41,561 nt of DNA from Paucisalibacillus globulus (GTDB lineage: Bacteria; Bacillota; Bacilli; Bacillales; Amphibacillaceae), in contig NZ_LT855389.1 in assembly GCF_900184735.1 (NCBI RefSeq), forward strand, positions 1 to 41,561. The letters run 5' to 3'. The notes beneath the pieces were generated by a model, which ran no database searches, had not been told where the DNA came from, and saw nothing but the letters and a program-made list of their open reading frames with translations. Of this stretch, positions 1-37,037 are shown piece by piece; positions within the stretch are counted from its first letter, which is position 1, and each line of letters begins with the position of its first letter. The position numbers and the translations under genes are program-made.

Positions 1-1474
<1,474 letters not shown>

Positions 1475-5243: not shown

Positions 5244-5478
5244 TAAAAAAGCCTCTCATCCCAAAGAAGGGACGAGAAGCTATTACTCCCGCGGTACCAC
5301 CCAAATTAACGTTTAATACGTTCACTTGTATCCATAACGTGGATTAACGTCACAAGCTACTTTAGTTCACTCGTGCAGCCTTGAAGGCGAGTTCGTAACT
5401 TGTCAGGGGCAATTCACACCAACCATTGCCTCTCTTTACCTGAGCAATTTTACTACTACTCCTTCGCATCGCATTTTA
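5244..5478 (-). promoter_or_regulatory. T-box leader of leuS (tRNA-Leu sensing), with terminator
   Basis: On the minus strand the leader contains the T-box core GGGTGGTACCGCGGGAG (5286-5302). It ends in a terminator hairpin (GCTTCTCGTCCC...GGGATGAGAGGC, 5251-5280) followed by a T-run. The stem I region spans about 5375-5475. A CTC triplet at 5389-5391, followed by a purine, is a plausible leucine specifier. I could not fold stem I fully, so the specifier is an inference. By family knowledge, uncharged tRNA pairing with the T-box bulge disrupts the terminator and turns leuS on. Confidence 0.93.
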
Positions 5479-8082: not shown

Positions 8083-8243
8083 TAAAAAAGCCTTTCCTTC
8101 AAGACATGAGGAAAGGAATAACCAGCCTTTCGCTCTTATTGTTCAAGGAAGTTTTCCTTGCATCAGGTTAGCACCTTTTCACCTACGTGATGGTTGCTGG
8201 GCTTCATCGGGTCTGTCCCTCCGCCTGCTCTGAATAAGAGAGT
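8083..8243 (-). promoter_or_regulatory. SAM-I riboswitch (S-box) with terminator upstream of metK
   Basis: On the minus strand the aptamer (about 8132-8243) holds the S-box core GAGGGAC, CCGATGAAGCCC, GCAACC and the AAGGTGCTAA segment. It is closed by a P1 helix of CTCTTATTC with CAATAAGAG. It is followed by a terminator, CCTTTCCT pairing with AGGAAAGG (about 8089-8116), ending in a T-run. By family knowledge, SAM binding favours the terminator and lowers metK expression. Confidence 0.97.
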
Positions 8244-26940: not shown

Positions 26941-26996
26941 AAATCATCATAGGAAATAAAGGCACACATATAAATGTACCAATGGTTCAGCTCGAC

Positions 26997-27134
26997 ATCT
27001 TCTCCCATCCAGACTTTAACTGTCGGTCCTGGACTCACACCAGGTCAACCGTTTGATGATGTTCAAACAGTTCACGGACTTAGAACGTAATGTTCATTAC
27101 CGCCGGTCGGGAATTGCACCCTGCCCCGAAGATG
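26997..27134 (-). promoter_or_regulatory. FMN riboswitch (RFN element)
   Basis: On the minus strand the conserved RFN segments occur in order: ATCTTCGGGGCAGGGTG, AATTCCCGACCGGCGGT, AGTCCGTGAAC, a variable hairpin, TGGTGTGAGTCCAGGACCG, ACAGTTAAAGTCTGGATGG and GAGAAGATG closing the basal stem. By family knowledge FMN binding promotes the downstream terminator and lowers riboflavin uptake. Confidence 0.97.
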
Positions 27135-27160
27135 GAATCGATATTTAATTGTCAATTATT

Positions 27161-30979: not shown

Positions 30980-32329
30980 ATGACACATATCAATTTTTCC
31001 TATCAACACGCATTATATTTCCTAAATAAAGAAGAACTAGACAACCTTTCAGAATTCGTATCAGTTGCTCATCAAGCTATACATAATAAGACTGGTCCTG
31101 GAAGTGACTTTTTGGGTTGGGTAGAACTACCAGAAAACTACGACAAAGAAGAATATAGCCGTATCAAGGCTGCTTCTGAAAAAATAAAAAAAGACTCGGA
31201 TATACTACTAGTCATTGGGATTGGCGGCTCATATTTAGGTGCAAAAGCAGCATTAGAAATGTTAAATCATTCATTTCAACAGATGCTATCAAAAGAGCAG
31301 CGCAATGTTCCGCAAATCATCTTTGTAGGCCATCACATGAGCTCTACTTACATGAAAGAGTTATTTGATGTACTAGAAGGAAAAGATTTCTCTATCAACA
31401 TTATTTCAAAGAGTGGAACTACTACAGAGCCTGCAATTGCCTTCCGCATCTTCAAGAAATATTTAGAAGAGAAATACGGTAAGGAAGAAGCTAAAACGCG
31501 TATTTTCGCCACTACTGATAAAGCTAAAGGTGCACTTAAAGGTGTAGCAGATGAGGCTGGTTATGAAACGTTTGTTATCCCAGATGATGTTGGTGGTCGT
31601 TTCTCTGTATTAACAGCTGTCGGATTACTACCAATTGCTGTAAGTGGAATTAATATAGACGATATGATGCAAGGTGCTCTTGATGCAATGAATGACTTCA
31701 ACGATCCGAATCTTGACAATAACATTGCCTATCAATATGCGGCTGTACGGAATGTCTTGTATAACAAAGGAAAAACAATTGAAATGCTTGTGAATTATGA
31801 ACCTAGTCTTCAATATTTCTCTGAATGGTGGAAGCAATTATATGGGGAGAGTGAAGGAAAAGATCAAAAAGGAATTTATCCAACTTCGGCAAACTTCTCT
31901 ACTGACCTTCATTCATTAGGACAATATATTCAAGATGGCCGCCGTGATTTATTTGAAACTGTCATTCATGTAAACCAATCTAAATGGGAACTGACTTTGG
32001 AAGAAGAAGATAATAATTCAGATGGCCTTAACTATTTAGCTGGTAAAACCATTCATGAAATTAATGACAAAGCATATCAAGGTACATTACTAGCACATAT
32101 GGATGGTGGCGTACCAAACCTAATTATTGATGTACCTGCACTTGATGCATATACATTTGGTTATCTGGTATACTTCTTTGAAAAAGCATGTGCATTAAGC
32201 GGATACCTACTAGGAGTGAACCCTTTTAACCAACCTGGAGTAGAAGCATATAAGAAAAATATGTTTGCGTTGTTAGGCAAGCCAGGATTTGAAGCAGAAA
32301 AAGCAGAATTAGAAAAACGCTTGAAATAA
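30980..32329 (+). CDS. pgi: Glucose-6-phosphate isomerase
   Basis: It interconverts glucose 6-phosphate and fructose 6-phosphate. It is 449 residues, the length of Firmicute Pgi. Two SIS-type sugar-phosphate sites are visible: [16 protein letters not shown] near residue 76 and [19 protein letters not shown] near 138. The catalytic region [19 protein letters not shown] is near 196 and the Pgi signature follows ([18 protein letters not shown]). AAGGAGG precedes the ATG. A terminator shared with the convergent sigma-fusion gene follows. Confidence 0.98.
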
Positions 32330-32368: not shown

Positions 32369-34477
32369 TCACTTCATTATTTTCCAAATACCATCCTCTT
32401 TCATCAGCTCAACAGATGCAAGTACATTTCTATCCCATTCAGCAAAGTAAACCGTAGCGGTGTTTTCTGATGTGTAATCTGTTAATCCATAACTACCTAT
32501 ATTCCTCATGTTGAACCAATCCACTTCCAAATTCTGTTCCATATTCATCGAATGATATAGCATACTATACGTATTACTATCCTCTTTCTCATAAGCATAG
32601 GCATATAAGGAGACCACTTCTAATGGATTTAATTCATTTAGTAGGTTAGTATCTAAATTACTGCTATAATCACGGTAGAGTCCTCCAGTATTTACTGTAA
32701 ACGGCCAGCGGTTTAGTTCGACAATATCATCGAGTTTAACATTTTTGAATTGTTCATCCAGTTGAAACCAAAGCTTTTCAACTGAGAAATAATCCTCCTC
32801 TGTTCTTTTCCATTCGTTTTCTTCCCAATCTTTCAAAGTACTGCGGATAATATTCGAATAAATGGAATCTGGATTATTCTCTAGGAACTGATAATATTCT
32901 TCTCTCTCTGTTTCATAAACTGTTGTTTGGCCATCCCATATTTTTAGATATTGATTTAGATAGTTAACCATATCATGATATAAGTACTCCTGAAATTCTT
33001 CAGTATAGTCATCACCATATTGATTAATAAGGGATTCAATTTCCAGTAAGGTATCAGCTACAACTTCCCAATCCGTCCAATCTAGCGAATATTGATTGAC
33101 CGTATAATCCACATAACTTAAATAAGCTTCACTATAACCTTTTTCTGCTAATTTCTCCTTAAATTCCTTCATATCTAGTTTGACCATTAAATAGCTATAA
33201 CCAGGATCGAAACTTACTACGTAGCCTTGTTCATTTATTAATCGTAAAAAGTTTTTAATTTCTTCAGATCCAGTATATTCTACAGGATTATCCTGCGATG
33301 CTACGATTTGCTCATATTCATCTACTGGGATTGAAGTCACTAGTTTTTGTAAATAACCCTCAAATTCCCTCTCATACATAAAAGACACGCCTAATACTTC
33401 CATAAAAGAATAAGGTTCTGCAGCGGATGGGGATTCTAGTTTCTCAACGATGTCTGAAGGTAATGTTAACATCATATCAATATAATTTTTTGTGTCGTCT
33501 ACCCCACCAAACATATCAGGAGAGCGTTTCAACTCATCTATGATGGATCTTACACTCTGAACAACAGGAAAGCTATTCACATCGTCCAATCCAATCTCTG
33601 CTCCAAAGTTTTCGATTGCTTGTTCCATATATTCTACAATTTCCGGATTTAATTCTTCAATATATTCATCAGGTTCTGTAGTAGCTATCGCTTCTGCAGC
33701 TTCTCTCTTTGCTGCTTTCTCTTCCTCTTGCGCTGCTTTTAATTCAGCCTTTTGTTCTTGAATATAGTTTAGACCAAGTAATGCGAATAAGAACAAACCA
33801 AGCACAGCACCAACTGTCGGCACTAGCTTTTTCCATTTTTGAGACTTTCTAGCCTGGTCAATGCTGACCATCACTTCTTGTTTATCCGTAAACTCCGGAA
33901 GCCTTTGAAAGGCATATCGCATTTCCATTAAGCTATCATGAAGAGTTCTTTCTTGTTGTGAGGTTGCTATTTTATTAAACTTATCCGATAGTAACTTTTC
34001 ACCCTGTTGTAACATTTTATTCATGCTTACTTCATTTGTTTTAAGAATGGTTGCAATTTCGTCTTTTGATTTATCAAAGAAATAGTTTAGAATTAGTGGA
34101 ACCTTATACTTGCTACTCATTTCTCGTAAATTCATTTGATTAGAGATATGTTCTACTCGTTCAAAGTAATACCCGTATTGAGTGGAGTCGTTTAAATTTC
34201 CAGCAACCTTTCGGACTTTTTTCTGTCTACGCTCATCTTCCTTTAATGTTTGAATCATTATCTGATGAATAATAGGATGTATGGTATCTTGTTCAAATTT
34301 ATCTGTTTTACGGCCAATATTCACAAAGACTTCTTTGACAACTTCTGAAATTCTGTTAGGCTCAATCCCATATTGAAACACGAACTTCTCTATCTTAGGT
34401 TTATAATAATCAATTAAATATTCGAAAGCCGCTTGTTCTCTATCTTTTAGTCGTTTTGCAAGCTCTTGCTCGTGCAT
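32369..34477 (-). CDS. Membrane-tethered ECF-like sigma factor fused to a large extracellular domain (copy 1)
   Basis: A 702-residue fusion. Residues about 10-90 resemble sigma region 2 (AFEYLIDYYKPKIEKFVFQY, VVKEVFVNI, EDERRQKK). Residues about 115-165 resemble sigma region 4 (LREMSSKYKVPLILNYFF, DEIATILKTNEVSMNKML), but the helix-turn-helix is diverged. A linker with LPEFTDKQEV recalls the cytoplasmic part of RsiX-type anti-sigma factors. One transmembrane helix follows at about 218-239 (KLVPTVGAVLGLFLFALLGL), then a charged EEEKAAKREAAEA stretch and about 430 residues expected outside the cell. The end resembles an NTF2-like domain (ASVELMKEDGIWKI). ATG at 34477 is chosen for AAAGGGGG 6-7 nt upstream. 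It is a diverged paralogue of the next gene. Confidence 0.85.
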   Translation of the reverse strand: MHEQELAKRLKDREQAAFEYLIDYYKPKIEKFVFQYGIEPNRISEVVKEVFVNIGRKTDKFEQDTIHPIIHQIMIQTLKEDERRQKKVRKVAGNLNDSTQYGYYFERVEHISNQMNLREMSSKYKVPLILNYFFDKSKDEIATILKTNEVSMNKMLQQGEKLLSDKFNKIATSQQERTLHDSLMEMRYAFQRLPEFTDKQEVMVSIDQARKSQKWKKLVPTVGAVLGLFLFALLGLNYIQEQKAELKAAQEEEKAAKREAAEAIATTEPDEYIEELNPEIVEYMEQAIENFGAEIGLDDVNSFPVVQSVRSIIDELKRSPDMFGGVDDTKNYIDMMLTLPSDIVEKLESPSAAEPYSFMEVLGVSFMYEREFEGYLQKLVTSIPVDEYEQIVASQDNPVEYTGSEEIKNFLRLINEQGYVVSFDPGYSYLMVKLDMKEFKEKLAEKGYSEAYLSYVDYTVNQYSLDWTDWEVVADTLLEIESLINQYGDDYTEEFQEYLYHDMVNYLNQYLKIWDGQTTVYETEREEYYQFLENNPDSIYSNIIRSTLKDWEENEWKRTEEDYFSVEKLWFQLDEQFKNVKLDDIVELNRWPFTVNTGGLYRDYSSNLDTNLLNELNPLEVVSLYAYAYEKEDSNTYSMLYHSMNMEQNLEVDWFNMRNIGSYGLTDYTSENTATVYFAEWDRNVLASVELMKEDGIWKIMK

Positions 34478-34511
34478 TAATATCCCCCTTTTACCACGCC
34501 TACTCATATAT

Positions 34512-34540
34512 GTAACGTATCTATCTGTATAAAAGTTTCA
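34512..34540 (-). promoter_or_regulatory. Possible ECF-type promoter of sigma-fusion copy 1
   Basis: On the minus strand TGAAAC (34535-34540), a 17-nt spacer and CGTTAC (34512-34517) resemble ECF sigma promoters (TGAAAC, about 16-17 nt, CGT). The TTCTTGAA string containing the -35 also lies upstream of copy 2. Confidence 0.45.
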
Positions 34541-34565
34541 AGAAGTAAGACTATTTTTAATTAAA

Positions 34566-34613
34566 ACAAGTTTATAACTATTGTAACAGTATTTGTAAAA
34601 TTAATTAAGACTT
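34566..34613 (-). promoter_or_regulatory. Conserved upstream block shared with sigma-fusion copy 2
   Basis: On the minus strand AAGTCTTA (34606-34613), 17 nt, then TGTTACAATAGTTATAAAC. The same blocks with the same 17-nt spacing lie upstream of copy 2. TG-T-TACAAT could be an extended -10 for a housekeeping promoter. Confidence 0.5.
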
Positions 34614-34641
34614 AATGCTTAGATAGCTATGGAAAAAACGC

Positions 34642-34676
34642 AAAACAACTCCCCCATTAATTGGAGGAGTTGTTTT
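34642..34676 (-). terminator. Terminator of sigma-fusion copy 2, overlapping its stop codon
   Basis: An 11-bp stem, 34642-34652 with 34666-34676, and a 13-nt loop containing the TAA stop (34657-34659). On the minus strand the stem is followed by TTTTGCGTTTTTT. Confidence 0.8.
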
Positions 34677-36810
34677 TATAAATCCAAGCAACTTGCCATA
34701 TATTATTATCTTTTATCAATTCAACACTGGTAACATGCTCAAGATTCCAGTCAGCTAAATGTACTATTGCATTATTTTCACTTGGATATTCCGTAAAGAC
34801 ATATTCACTTGAATGTCGCCTTAACTCAATTAAATTCAAATCTGTATCTTCCGGAAAGGTTTTTAATGCCTTTAACGAATTGTAAACTTTACCCTCATCT
34901 TTCCCACTTGCATAATCATATAATGAGACCACTTCTAATGGACTTAAGTCTACTAATTGTGATGGATCAAAGTTTTCTTGTAATTCTTTATATATAACAA
35001 TGGAATTCATTTCTTTTGGCCAACGCCGATTAAGTTCAAAGTTTGCTAATTTAATAGTACCGAACCTCTCATCAAACAATGCTTTGATATAAGTAAAATC
35101 AGGAGGGTAAATGGTCTCCATCCACTCACTCGCTTCATATTCCTGTACAGCTGTATGAAAAACATCCCAAAATACTGAATCAGGATTTTCTTCAAGGAAT
35201 TGATAAAATACTTGTCTATCTTCCTCAGGCAACGGCTTAGGTCTAGTATTACCCCAAATTAGATAATGAAGATTAGTATTAATATCCGAAATAATGTATT
35301 CCTTAATTGTTTCAGAATAGAAATGTCCATAATCCACTAGAATAGATTCTAGTTCTAGTAATATTTCATCATGTTCATCCCAAGCCTTTGTGTGAAACTG
35401 ATCCCCATAATCAATAGTGAAATCCAAGTATTTTAAGTAGCCTGGGTTGAAACCGGCTTGTTCTACATTTTCTTTAACCTGGACAAAATCAATCTGAACG
35501 GTGACTTTATCATATTCAGAATTTCTTGTTAAGTAATATCCCTGTTTTTGTAAGGTTTGTATAAGTTCTTTCAACTTTTCAGGCCCATCATAATTGGTTA
35601 GATGGTCCTGAGAGGAAACTATTGAATCATATTCTTCAATAGGAATATTTAATTCTAACAGAAGATTATCCAAGTAATCTTGAAAATTACCTTCATATTT
35701 CGAAAGGGTATACAAGTAGGTCATAAATTTCTCATCACGTTTGTCTGGATTTAATAAATTCTCTTTTGTAATTGACGGGGGTGTTAATTCCATGTCAATA
35801 AACTCTTTCTGGTGATTATGGACAAATTCTCTATTATCAGGATCAGGATTATTCAGCAACATATCCTTTAATACCATTTCGATCATTTGGGTTGAGATTA
35901 ATCCATTAACATCTTCCATTTCAAGTTCTGTTGCTAGTTGTTCTATTGCTTGATTCAAATACGCAACAAGTTCTGGGTCTAATTCAACCTGCTGAACCTC
36001 CGGATTACTATCAGCTTCTGATTGATTCTCTCTTTCTTCTGTTTCCTGTTGTTCTCGAAATGCTTGTTTATCAGATTCATCCTGAATATACTTAACCGTA
36101 AAAGTGGAAAAAAGAAGCAAGCCAATAATCCCTACCGCAGTTGGAAGTAATTTTTTCCATTTATGCGATGCTTTTACTTTCTCTATCCTCATAAGTATAT
36201 CCTGTTTGTTTACCAATGAAGGTAAACGTTCATAGTAGTAATTTATCTCACCTAATAATTCTCTTAGATCTTTCTCATACGAATTTACTTGTAGCACTTC
36301 ATGAAGAATCTTTTCATATTTTTCTTTTAACAATTCTCCCCCACGTTGCAAACTAGATCTGACAGTATCCACTTTTATCTTCAGTATGACAGAGATTTCC
36401 TCAAAAGTTTGATTGTGAAAGTAGTGTAAGATTATAGGTTGCTTCCATTTATTATCTAGCTCTCTAAGACAATATTGCAACAGCATTTCTCGTTTATTCT
36501 CTATGTAATAACCATATCGTCTTTCTATCGATGATAAATCTTCCTTTTTACTTACATCTTTATTATGATAATCTTTCAGGCTATGAAAACTTTGTTGGAA
36601 AACCCATACTGATAATTGCCCAGGTTCCAATTGTTCCATTTTCCGGTAAAAGTTACAGAAGACCTCTTGAACTACATCAGTGATCTCATTTGGTTCGATC
36701 CCATATTGAAAAGCGATTTTTTCCACCAATCTTTTATATTTATCAATTAGTTGTTCGAAAGCTTCTAGATCTTTATCTTTTAGTAATTGTACTAACTGTT
36801 CTACGTGCAC
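34657..36810 (-). CDS. Membrane-tethered ECF-like sigma factor fused to a large extracellular domain (copy 2)
   Basis: A 717-residue fusion. Region 2 lies at about 15-85 (AFEQLIDKYKRLVEKIAFQY, DVVQEVFCNFYRKM) and a well-kept region 4 at about 113-165 (LRELDNKWKQPIILHYF, TFEEISVILKIKVDTVRSSL). The linker ERLPSLVNKQDILMRIEKVK precedes a transmembrane helix at about 219-242 (KKLLPTAVGIIGLLLFSTFTV). An acidic linker and about 450 expected extracellular residues end in VELIKDNNIWQV. The start is GTG at 36810 rather than ATG at 36816: the AAGGGGG site lies 6 nt before the GTG but touches the ATG, and copy 1 has the same geometry. It lies upstream of copy 1 with its own terminator between them. I infer that proteolysis could release the sigma part. 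Confidence 0.87.
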   Translation of the reverse strand: MHVEQLVQLLKDKDLEAFEQLIDKYKRLVEKIAFQYGIEPNEITDVVQEVFCNFYRKMEQLEPGQLSVWVFQQSFHSLKDYHNKDVSKKEDLSSIERRYGYYIENKREMLLQYCLRELDNKWKQPIILHYFHNQTFEEISVILKIKVDTVRSSLQRGGELLKEKYEKILHEVLQVNSYEKDLRELLGEINYYYERLPSLVNKQDILMRIEKVKASHKWKKLLPTAVGIIGLLLFSTFTVKYIQDESDKQAFREQQETEERENQSEADSNPEVQQVELDPELVAYLNQAIEQLATELEMEDVNGLISTQMIEMVLKDMLLNNPDPDNREFVHNHQKEFIDMELTPPSITKENLLNPDKRDEKFMTYLYTLSKYEGNFQDYLDNLLLELNIPIEEYDSIVSSQDHLTNYDGPEKLKELIQTLQKQGYYLTRNSEYDKVTVQIDFVQVKENVEQAGFNPGYLKYLDFTIDYGDQFHTKAWDEHDEILLELESILVDYGHFYSETIKEYIISDINTNLHYLIWGNTRPKPLPEEDRQVFYQFLEENPDSVFWDVFHTAVQEYEASEWMETIYPPDFTYIKALFDERFGTIKLANFELNRRWPKEMNSIVIYKELQENFDPSQLVDLSPLEVVSLYDYASGKDEGKVYNSLKALKTFPEDTDLNLIELRRHSSEYVFTEYPSENNAIVHLADWNLEHVTSVELIKDNNIWQVAWIYKNNSSN

Positions 36811-36837
36811 TGCCATCCCCCTTATTCCAACTGGTTT

Positions 36838-36936
36838 CGTACATCATCCATCTAAAAAAATTCAAGAAATGAAAAAAAGTTTTAATAAACATGTTTATAT
36901 TTATTGTATCAGGGTATAACTAATATCGTAAGACTT
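36838..36936 (-). promoter_or_regulatory. Upstream region of sigma-fusion copy 2 with blocks shared with copy 1
   Basis: On the minus strand AAGTCTTA (36929-36936), 17 nt, TGATACAATAAATATAAAC, then TTCTTGAA (36861-36868) and, about 19 nt further, GTACG (36838-36842). The first blocks match copy 1 in sequence and spacing. The ECF-like -10 is weaker here. Confidence 0.5.
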
Positions 36937-37037
36937 TCTCGTATTCCCCCTGTAGGCAAGGCGTATTTAACGCTTTGCTCTTTTTTTTGCCTTTTTTAAG
37001 GTATACTAGAAGTGGAAAAATAATAGGAGGTTATACT

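Follow-up and report, generated by a model that had tools for sequence, protein, structure and literature searches.

A 41,561-nucleotide stretch of the Paucisalibacillus globulus genome (assembly GCF_900184735.1, contig NZ_LT855389.1, positions 1 to 41,561; hereafter the window) carries two tandem genes on the reverse strand, P0002 (upstream) and P0001 (downstream). Each of them encodes in a single chain a module related to the extracytoplasmic function (ECF) sigma factors, a short anti-sigma segment, a membrane helix, and a large outer part (Table 1). Comparison with relatives suggests that fusion of this kind took place repeatedly in this bacterial group and was followed by a tendency of the sigma part to lose the residues that read the promoter. 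The reading that we favor, with somewhat better than even confidence, is that these proteins are membrane sensors in which the sigma part is no longer (P0001) or only barely (P0002) a promoter-selective sigma factor.

Architecture of the two window genes

A previous sequence-only reading of the window had proposed that sigma factor, anchor, and sensor are joined on one chain and that two copies of this chain are present, and both proposals were borne out. The two open reading frames (ORFs) are present, and P0002 matched both sigma domains in Pfam (Sigma70_r2, 28.3 bits, cut-off 24; Sigma70_r4_2, 34.6 bits, cut-off 25.7). P0001 matched only Sigma70_r4_2, with a score of 25.7 that is exactly the cut-off, and no Pfam match to its region 2 was listed up to an E value of 1. 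Residues 11–174 of P0001 were covered by full-length ECF models, the best being NF007216 (SigY, E = 2.1e-10), every one of which scored under its own curated cut-off.

Using a 19-residue hydropathy window and a threshold of 1.6, we observed a single stretch above the threshold in each protein, with window starts at 226–232 in P0001 and 223–226 in P0002. The two features on which the sequence-only reading had staked itself, a sigma match and a membrane helix near residue 220, are present, as is the LPxxxxKQ motif that it had pointed out (LPEFTDKQ and LPSLVNKQ in the two proteins). The outer part is large, as anticipated, but at about 462 (P0001) and 475 (P0002) residues it is somewhat longer than the 430–450 expected. 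P0001 and P0002 are 35% identical along their full length, which makes them paralogues. From the position of the ribosome site and the alignment, the likely start codons are the ATG at 34477 for P0001 and the GTG at 36807 for P0002; an alternative ATG for P0001, at 34507, lies immediately behind a promoter-like site.

The fused genes correspond to a sigma/anti-sigma operon of relatives

A search of the family found matches at E ≤ 1e-20 in 23 of 159 genomes, including all 11 of the genus, with the genes either fused or separate; therefore, the architecture is not a product of chance. Twelve genomes have two genes instead, one encoding a sigma factor of about 182 residues and the other a membrane anti-sigma of about 510–565 residues; the anti-sigma of L058, only a short 108-codon frame, was excluded from all sensor counts. 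The separate pair is found at the locus equivalent to that of the window, as judged by its neighbors, in 10 of the 12 genomes, and elsewhere in L056 and L058. In the window, these neighbors are a pgi-like gene (30980–32329) and a patB-like gene (ORF from 36975), names which, like yugI below, we presume from Bacillus subtilis. The stop codon of the sigma gene and the start codon of the anti-sigma gene overlap as ATGGATGA in 8 of the 12 separate operons, and in most of them the ribosome site lies within the end of the sigma gene. The window chains are homologous to these separate pairs along their whole length, and the LPxxxxKQ segment aligns to the cytoplasmic N-terminus of the separate anti-sigmas. 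Thus, the window genes are fusions of that operon, an origin that had been missed when they were taken for a one-piece signaling system, even if the architecture itself had been correctly perceived.

Eight genomes of the genus carry fused genes (a single copy in five, and two copies in three, of which L041 has one copy broken), as do two genomes of a second genus (L049 and L050). L011, the one relative that a scan of genome contigs yielded, and G103 designate one genome. Open frames of about 700 codons are present in 12 fused genes, even where identity with P0002 falls to 22%. The downstream fused copy of L041 (7712–9851, reverse strand) is split into two frames; this copy and a broken one in L116 were excluded from all counts. 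For the separate genes, Pfam was run on 10 of the 12 sigmas (L052 and L059 left out; the L059 sigma, truncated at its N-terminus, was otherwise included unchanged), and nothing above cut-off was found in the 8 of 11 full anti-sigmas that were analyzed.

Beyond the family, P0001 matched only 3 of 397 genomes of the order at E ≤ 1e-25, a threshold too strict for distant relatives, and a profile of the sensor part matched 104 of the 397, many of them in the C-terminal domain only. A third clade of fused proteins is formed by five genomes of another genus (L115–L119) with tandem fused pairs, one copy in L116 being broken into two frames; the pairs adjoin a yugI-like gene in four of the five genomes. 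Separate pairs of other families were inspected in six genomes, five of which have the pair beside a yugI-like gene. The C-terminal domain of the sensor, corresponding to profile positions of about 390–530, has matches in many further proteins of the order; in the P. globulus genome, it matches the product encoded beside the L004 sigma (G000:C12:439188-439664).

The trees favor three independent fusions in the order. A tree of two neighbor proteins (19 rows, without L045, L056, and L058, whose genes are outside the available stretch) rejected a single origin of the fused loci of the family (approximately unbiased test, p-AU = 2.3e-6), and the sensor tree (23 rows) required two changes. In the latter, the ten fused proteins of the genus form one clade (100/100), and most of them belong to an upstream or a downstream lineage, so the duplication came after the fusion; L040 is weakly placed. 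Some species of the genus would later have kept one fused copy. When the third clade was included (38 rows, a tree obtained with a quick method and having long branches), three fusions were needed, and one clade was rejected (p-AU = 2.2e-7). In two of these cases, the fusion was probably followed by a tandem duplication.

Promoter-reading positions were preferentially lost after fusion

According to the crystal structure of SigW bound to the −35 element, residues K170, T171, and R175 read the bases, and the ECF sigmas of B. subtilis carry K/R, S/T, and K/R at these positions (PMC6713349). The 12 separate sigmas fit this base-reading triple in 35 of 36 cells, the 12 fused proteins in 9 of 36, and P0001 in none of its three. 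A regular expression for the recognition helix, matching 12/12 separate and 0/12 fused sequences, was discarded, being stricter than the structure-based triple, which P0002 passes. Five separate paralogous sigmas encoded elsewhere (L060–L064) fit in 10 of 15 cells because they have V at the middle position, their recognition helix reading VKVR instead of VKTR; in four of these five, the next gene has a similar short anti-sigma segment, with differing outer domains.

The conserved cells kept in the fused proteins amounted to 16 of 84 in the −35 helix and 54 of 144 in what we take to be region 2.3/2.4 within sigma region 2, compared with 47 of 72 for the core-binding helix and 266 of 413 at the remaining positions, the reference columns having been picked from the separate sigmas, which lowers all the fused counts. 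The loss is, therefore, concentrated on the promoter-reading surface. P0001 and P0002 each kept 3 of the 12 conserved columns of region 2.3/2.4. The recognition helices differ among the fused lineages, with no evident new consensus, and region 2 was undetectable by Pfam in all nine proteins of the third clade.

The sigma part also evolved faster relative to the sensor in the fused proteins. Using distances between orthologues only, and leaving out L040, whose place among the copies is unsure, the sigma/sensor ratio ranged from 0.88 to 1.56 in 17 fused pairs and from 0.32 to 0.80 in 55 separate pairs, without overlap, the pairs not being independent of each other. These distances replaced an analysis of banded identities, which mixed paralogues with orthologues and overstated the difference. 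When scaled to the patB-like neighbor (without L056 and L058), the mean sigma distance was 3.49 for the fused (17 pairs) and 1.61 for the separate proteins (45 pairs), and the mean sensor distance was 3.14 and 3.53, respectively; hence, the sigma part sped up about twofold after fusion and the sensor did not. The ratio of nonsynonymous to synonymous substitution rates (dN/dS; Nei–Gojobori method, NG86) of the sigma part was 0.498, 0.368, 0.273, 0.212, and 0.142 in five fused pairs and 0.073 in the only close separate pair available, and that of the sensor was 0.148–0.252 in the fused pairs and 0.288 in the separate pair, some of the dS values being high. For the whole fused chains, dN/dS was 0.16–0.33 in five pairs, so the fused proteins are still under purifying selection.

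Predicted structure of the sigma module

The AlphaFold model of P0002 had a mean predicted local distance difference test score (pLDDT) of 87.5 and a predicted template modeling score (pTM) of 0.61; the alignment used for the prediction (A2) included 9 of the 12 separate sigmas. Among the Foldseek matches listed, the best for its sigma part were SigW bound to RsiW (target template modeling score, TM, 0.79–0.81), with CnrH bound to CnrY at 0.78 and RpoE with NepR at 0.66–0.68, versus 0.30–0.41 for the 13 polymerase-bound ECF sigmas among the matches listed. This fits a sigma module that, in the predicted model of P0002, is held in one of the known inhibited folds. The outer domain had no convincing match among the 50 listed. 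In the model of L119, the shortest protein of the third clade (pLDDT 76.6), no helix was present at residues 33–59, a part of low confidence, and no sigma structure appeared among the 50 matches listed.

Promoter-like sites in front of fused and separate genes

Both window genes are preceded by a sequence related to ECF-type promoters, degenerate in the case of P0002 (Table 1). The pattern GAAAC-N15/19-CGT was found in 10 of the 12 separate operons, a count that is safe for 9 of 12 because the L059 site is in the leader of a neighbor, off the aligned place. An extended site, GAAAC-N15/18-CGTTAYATA, has one exact match in the P. globulus genome, before P0001, and matches in 34 of 156 genomes of the family. 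Thirty-six places with this site were listed, 8 at the locus and 28 elsewhere, with 15 for a reversed-pattern control; the off-locus places are thus about twice the control, and several of them share a similar spacer and may represent a repeated coding stretch. Defining a regulon by the promoter pattern was rejected as an approach, given the single extended site of this genome. The P0001 site could be read by another ECF sigma, given that the same genome encodes a pair resembling SigW-RsiW in which the recognition helix is intact (L009). P0001 probably still depends on an ECF sigma for its expression, and this may be a different one, for example SigW.

Proposed mechanism and alternative explanations

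In this reading, the locus descends from a conventional pair in which an ECF sigma gene overlapped the gene encoding its own membrane anti-sigma sensor. The two frames fused, and tandem duplication of the resulting gene followed, with the sigma module left permanently attached to its own anti-sigma segment. Because a tethered sigma need no longer be diffusible and promoter-selective, its promoter-reading surface would have eroded; in the −35 helix this erosion is complete in P0001 and slight in P0002, and region 2.3/2.4 is affected in both proteins. The outcome would be a membrane sensor that has, on its cytoplasmic side, a sigma-derived module in an anti-sigma-bound fold. P0001 would then no longer be a sigma factor and P0002 at most a weak one, the module being in an occluded or inhibited state in the cell. 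More tentatively, it is possible that a recurrent route exists in Bacillaceae by which a sigma/anti-sigma pair becomes, through fusion and tandem duplication, a new kind of membrane receptor; the sigma part would be a mimic that does not read promoters and that either plugs its own anti-sigma segment in cis or competes in trans for the anti-sigma of another ECF sigma still reading the kept promoter.

The main alternative, which applies mostly to P0002 and which we consider unlikely, is that of a working one-piece ECF sigma: an outer signal would induce site-1 and then site-2 cleavage, and the freed fragment would read its own promoter and a few others. IutY works in this way (PMC5411451), and ECF48, ECF52, and ECF53 are expected to do so (PMC8999054); the genome has genes for PrsW-type and M50 proteases. 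Several of our results weigh against eroded sensors, and those on P0002, the core-binding helix, and the promoter-like sites also agree with this alternative. P0002, alone among the 12 fused proteins, has the complete base-reading triple (3/3), and it passes both Pfam sigma cut-offs. The core-binding helix, which contacts the polymerase, is no more eroded than the rest of the fused proteins, and the choice of reference columns works against them throughout. L043, L049, and L050 pass the Pfam cut-off for region 2, the region 4 scores of L049 and L050 are strong (49.5 and 42.8 bits), and region 4 is above cut-off in 3 of 9 proteins of the third clade. Nine of the 12 fused genes have GAAAC-N15/19-CGT within 150 bases upstream, for which autoregulation is a simple explanation. 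Weaknesses of the comparisons also count against the favored reading: the dN/dS contrast has a single separate pair on one side, and the sigma and sensor values are close between the downstream copy of the window and L044 and between the downstream copy of L011 and L044; taken alone, the sensor tree fails to reject a single clade of the family's 12 fused proteins (p-AU = 0.12); and other anti-sigma-bound sigmas (E. coli sigma-E, AlgU, BldN, and SigK) match the P0002 model poorly (0.43–0.55), so that the fold match, which concerns a predicted model, favors two complexes and not the anti-sigma-bound class.

On the other side, the full triple is missing in P0001 and ten other fused proteins, both window proteins retain little of region 2.3/2.4, and constraint on the sigma part, measured against the sensor, is weaker in the fused proteins than in the separate ones. 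In addition, the site before P0002 is degenerate, and the single exact extended site of the genome is that of P0001. The release of a working sigma, one of the two ways of activation that the sequence-only reading had considered, is for these reasons doubtful, with the triple of P0002 as the exception.

We regard as improbable a change of specificity or a division of labor, in which the copies would form a two-part sigma, or each would read a new promoter. Tandem duplication after fusion in two clades and the different erosion of P0001 and P0002 agree with it, and SigO-RsoA is a precedent for a two-part sigma (PMC8103513); however, a search for complementary losses, with region 2 gone from one copy and region 4 from the other, found none, five other genomes of the genus carry just one fused copy, and the lineage-specific recognition helices show no evident new consensus. 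Mere decay of the fused genes into pseudogenes, very improbable in our view, would account for the broken copies in L041 (downstream) and L116 and for the fast divergence, but not for the whole-chain dN/dS values, the long frames open at low identity, the matches in all the genomes of the genus, or the promoter-like sites retained in 9 of 12 genes.

Relation to known systems

Sigma proteins fused to membrane extensions have already been described. IutY of Pseudomonas putida is a proven working sigma, which Prc and RseP set free in iron-carrier cell-surface signaling (PMC5411451). Like the window proteins, it combines on a single chain an ECF sigma in the cytoplasm, one membrane-spanning segment, and an anti-sigma/sensor part outside. 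Unlike IutY, the window proteins have a Bacillaceae host, are encoded by tandem copies, carry an anti-sigma segment on the cytoplasmic side, and show erosion of promoter reading. In ECF48, ECF52, and ECF53 (for example, SCO4117), the C-terminus of the sigma is likewise fused to a transmembrane anti-sigma-like extension; unlike the window proteins, these come from actinobacteria and contain a zinc finger along with one or two helices (PMC8999054). No Pfam match to a zinc-finger anti-sigma domain was obtained in P0001, P0002, or the 8 separate anti-sigmas examined. The anti-sigma segment of the window proteins, of about 45 residues, is below the 50-residue limit that separates class I from possible class II (PMC7406223).

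PhyR of alphaproteobacteria has an ECF sigma-like fold with degenerate promoter- and polymerase-binding regions and works as a mimic (PMC8103513). The window proteins have a sigma-like domain whose promoter-reading positions are eroded, in P0002 only partly; in contrast, PhyR is a response regulator that titrates NepR, whereas the sigma part of the window proteins is membrane-tethered with its own anti-sigma segment, and the polymerase-binding helix of the fused proteins shows no special erosion. SigW-RsiW and CnrH-CnrY, the best fold matches of the predicted P0002 sigma part, differ in that sigma and anti-sigma are separate proteins.

Our searches of the open-access literature turned up no account of this locus, of repeated fusion accompanied by erosion of the sigma, or of Bacillaceae with fused copies in tandem, which does not contradict the earlier suggestion that no two-copy version had been described in this group. 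These loci provide a natural series, from a separate sigma through a fused, eroding sigma to a sigma with undetectable region 2, with which one may ask what use a sigma module has once promoter choice is gone and how PhyR-like mimics may arise. They also warn that annotation as a sigma factor may not mean a sigma factor.

Other elements in the window

Table 1. Positions of the fused genes, their parts, and other features in the window
Feature	Position	Strand	Remarks
P0002, upstream gene; fusion of sigma, anti-sigma segment, transmembrane helix, and sensor	34657..36816	-	719 codons
P0002 sigma regions 2 and 4	36289..36807	-	about residues 4-176
P0002 anti-sigma segment	36151..36276	-	about residues 181-222; aligns with the separate anti-sigma N-terminus
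P0002 membrane helix	36085..36150	-	about residues 223-244; hydropathy and model helix 204-244
P0002 outer (sensor) part	34660..36084	-	mostly helical; C-terminal domain with strands
Degenerate promoter-like site before P0002	36840..36864	-	TGAATT...TGTA; L011 has TGAAAC...CGTA
Terminator-like hairpin 3' of P0002	34642..34676	-	
P0001, downstream gene; P0002-like architecture, −35-reading helix more eroded	32369..34507	-	712 codons
P0001 sigma regions 2 and 4	33965..34477	-	about residues 11-181
P0001 anti-sigma segment	33830..33955	-	about residues 185-226
P0001 membrane helix	33758..33826	-	about residues 228-250; hydropathy
P0001 outer (sensor) part	32372..33757	-	
ECF-type promoter-like site before P0001, TGAAAC-N17-CGTTACATA	34509..34540	-	identical over its whole length in L011
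Terminator-like hairpin 3' of P0001	32331..32365	-	listed on the opposite strand too, after the pgi-like gene
16S ribosomal RNA	1-1473		3' end cut off by the window start
T-box	5265-5478		
S-adenosylmethionine (SAM) riboswitch	8133-8240		
Flavin mononucleotide (FMN) riboswitch	26993-27137		

Between P0002 and the patB-like gene, positions 36927–36985 of the forward strand match the Rfam family ncr1241 (a Bacillus small RNA) with 33.5 bits (E = 3.2e-4), below the cut-off of 60. A 21-base core of this element is exact in 20 of 23 sequences (the window and 19 loci examined) and is followed by a terminator-like hairpin. We speculate that the CCCCC run of the element might base-pair with ribosome sites containing GGGGG, among them the ones that precede the fused genes.

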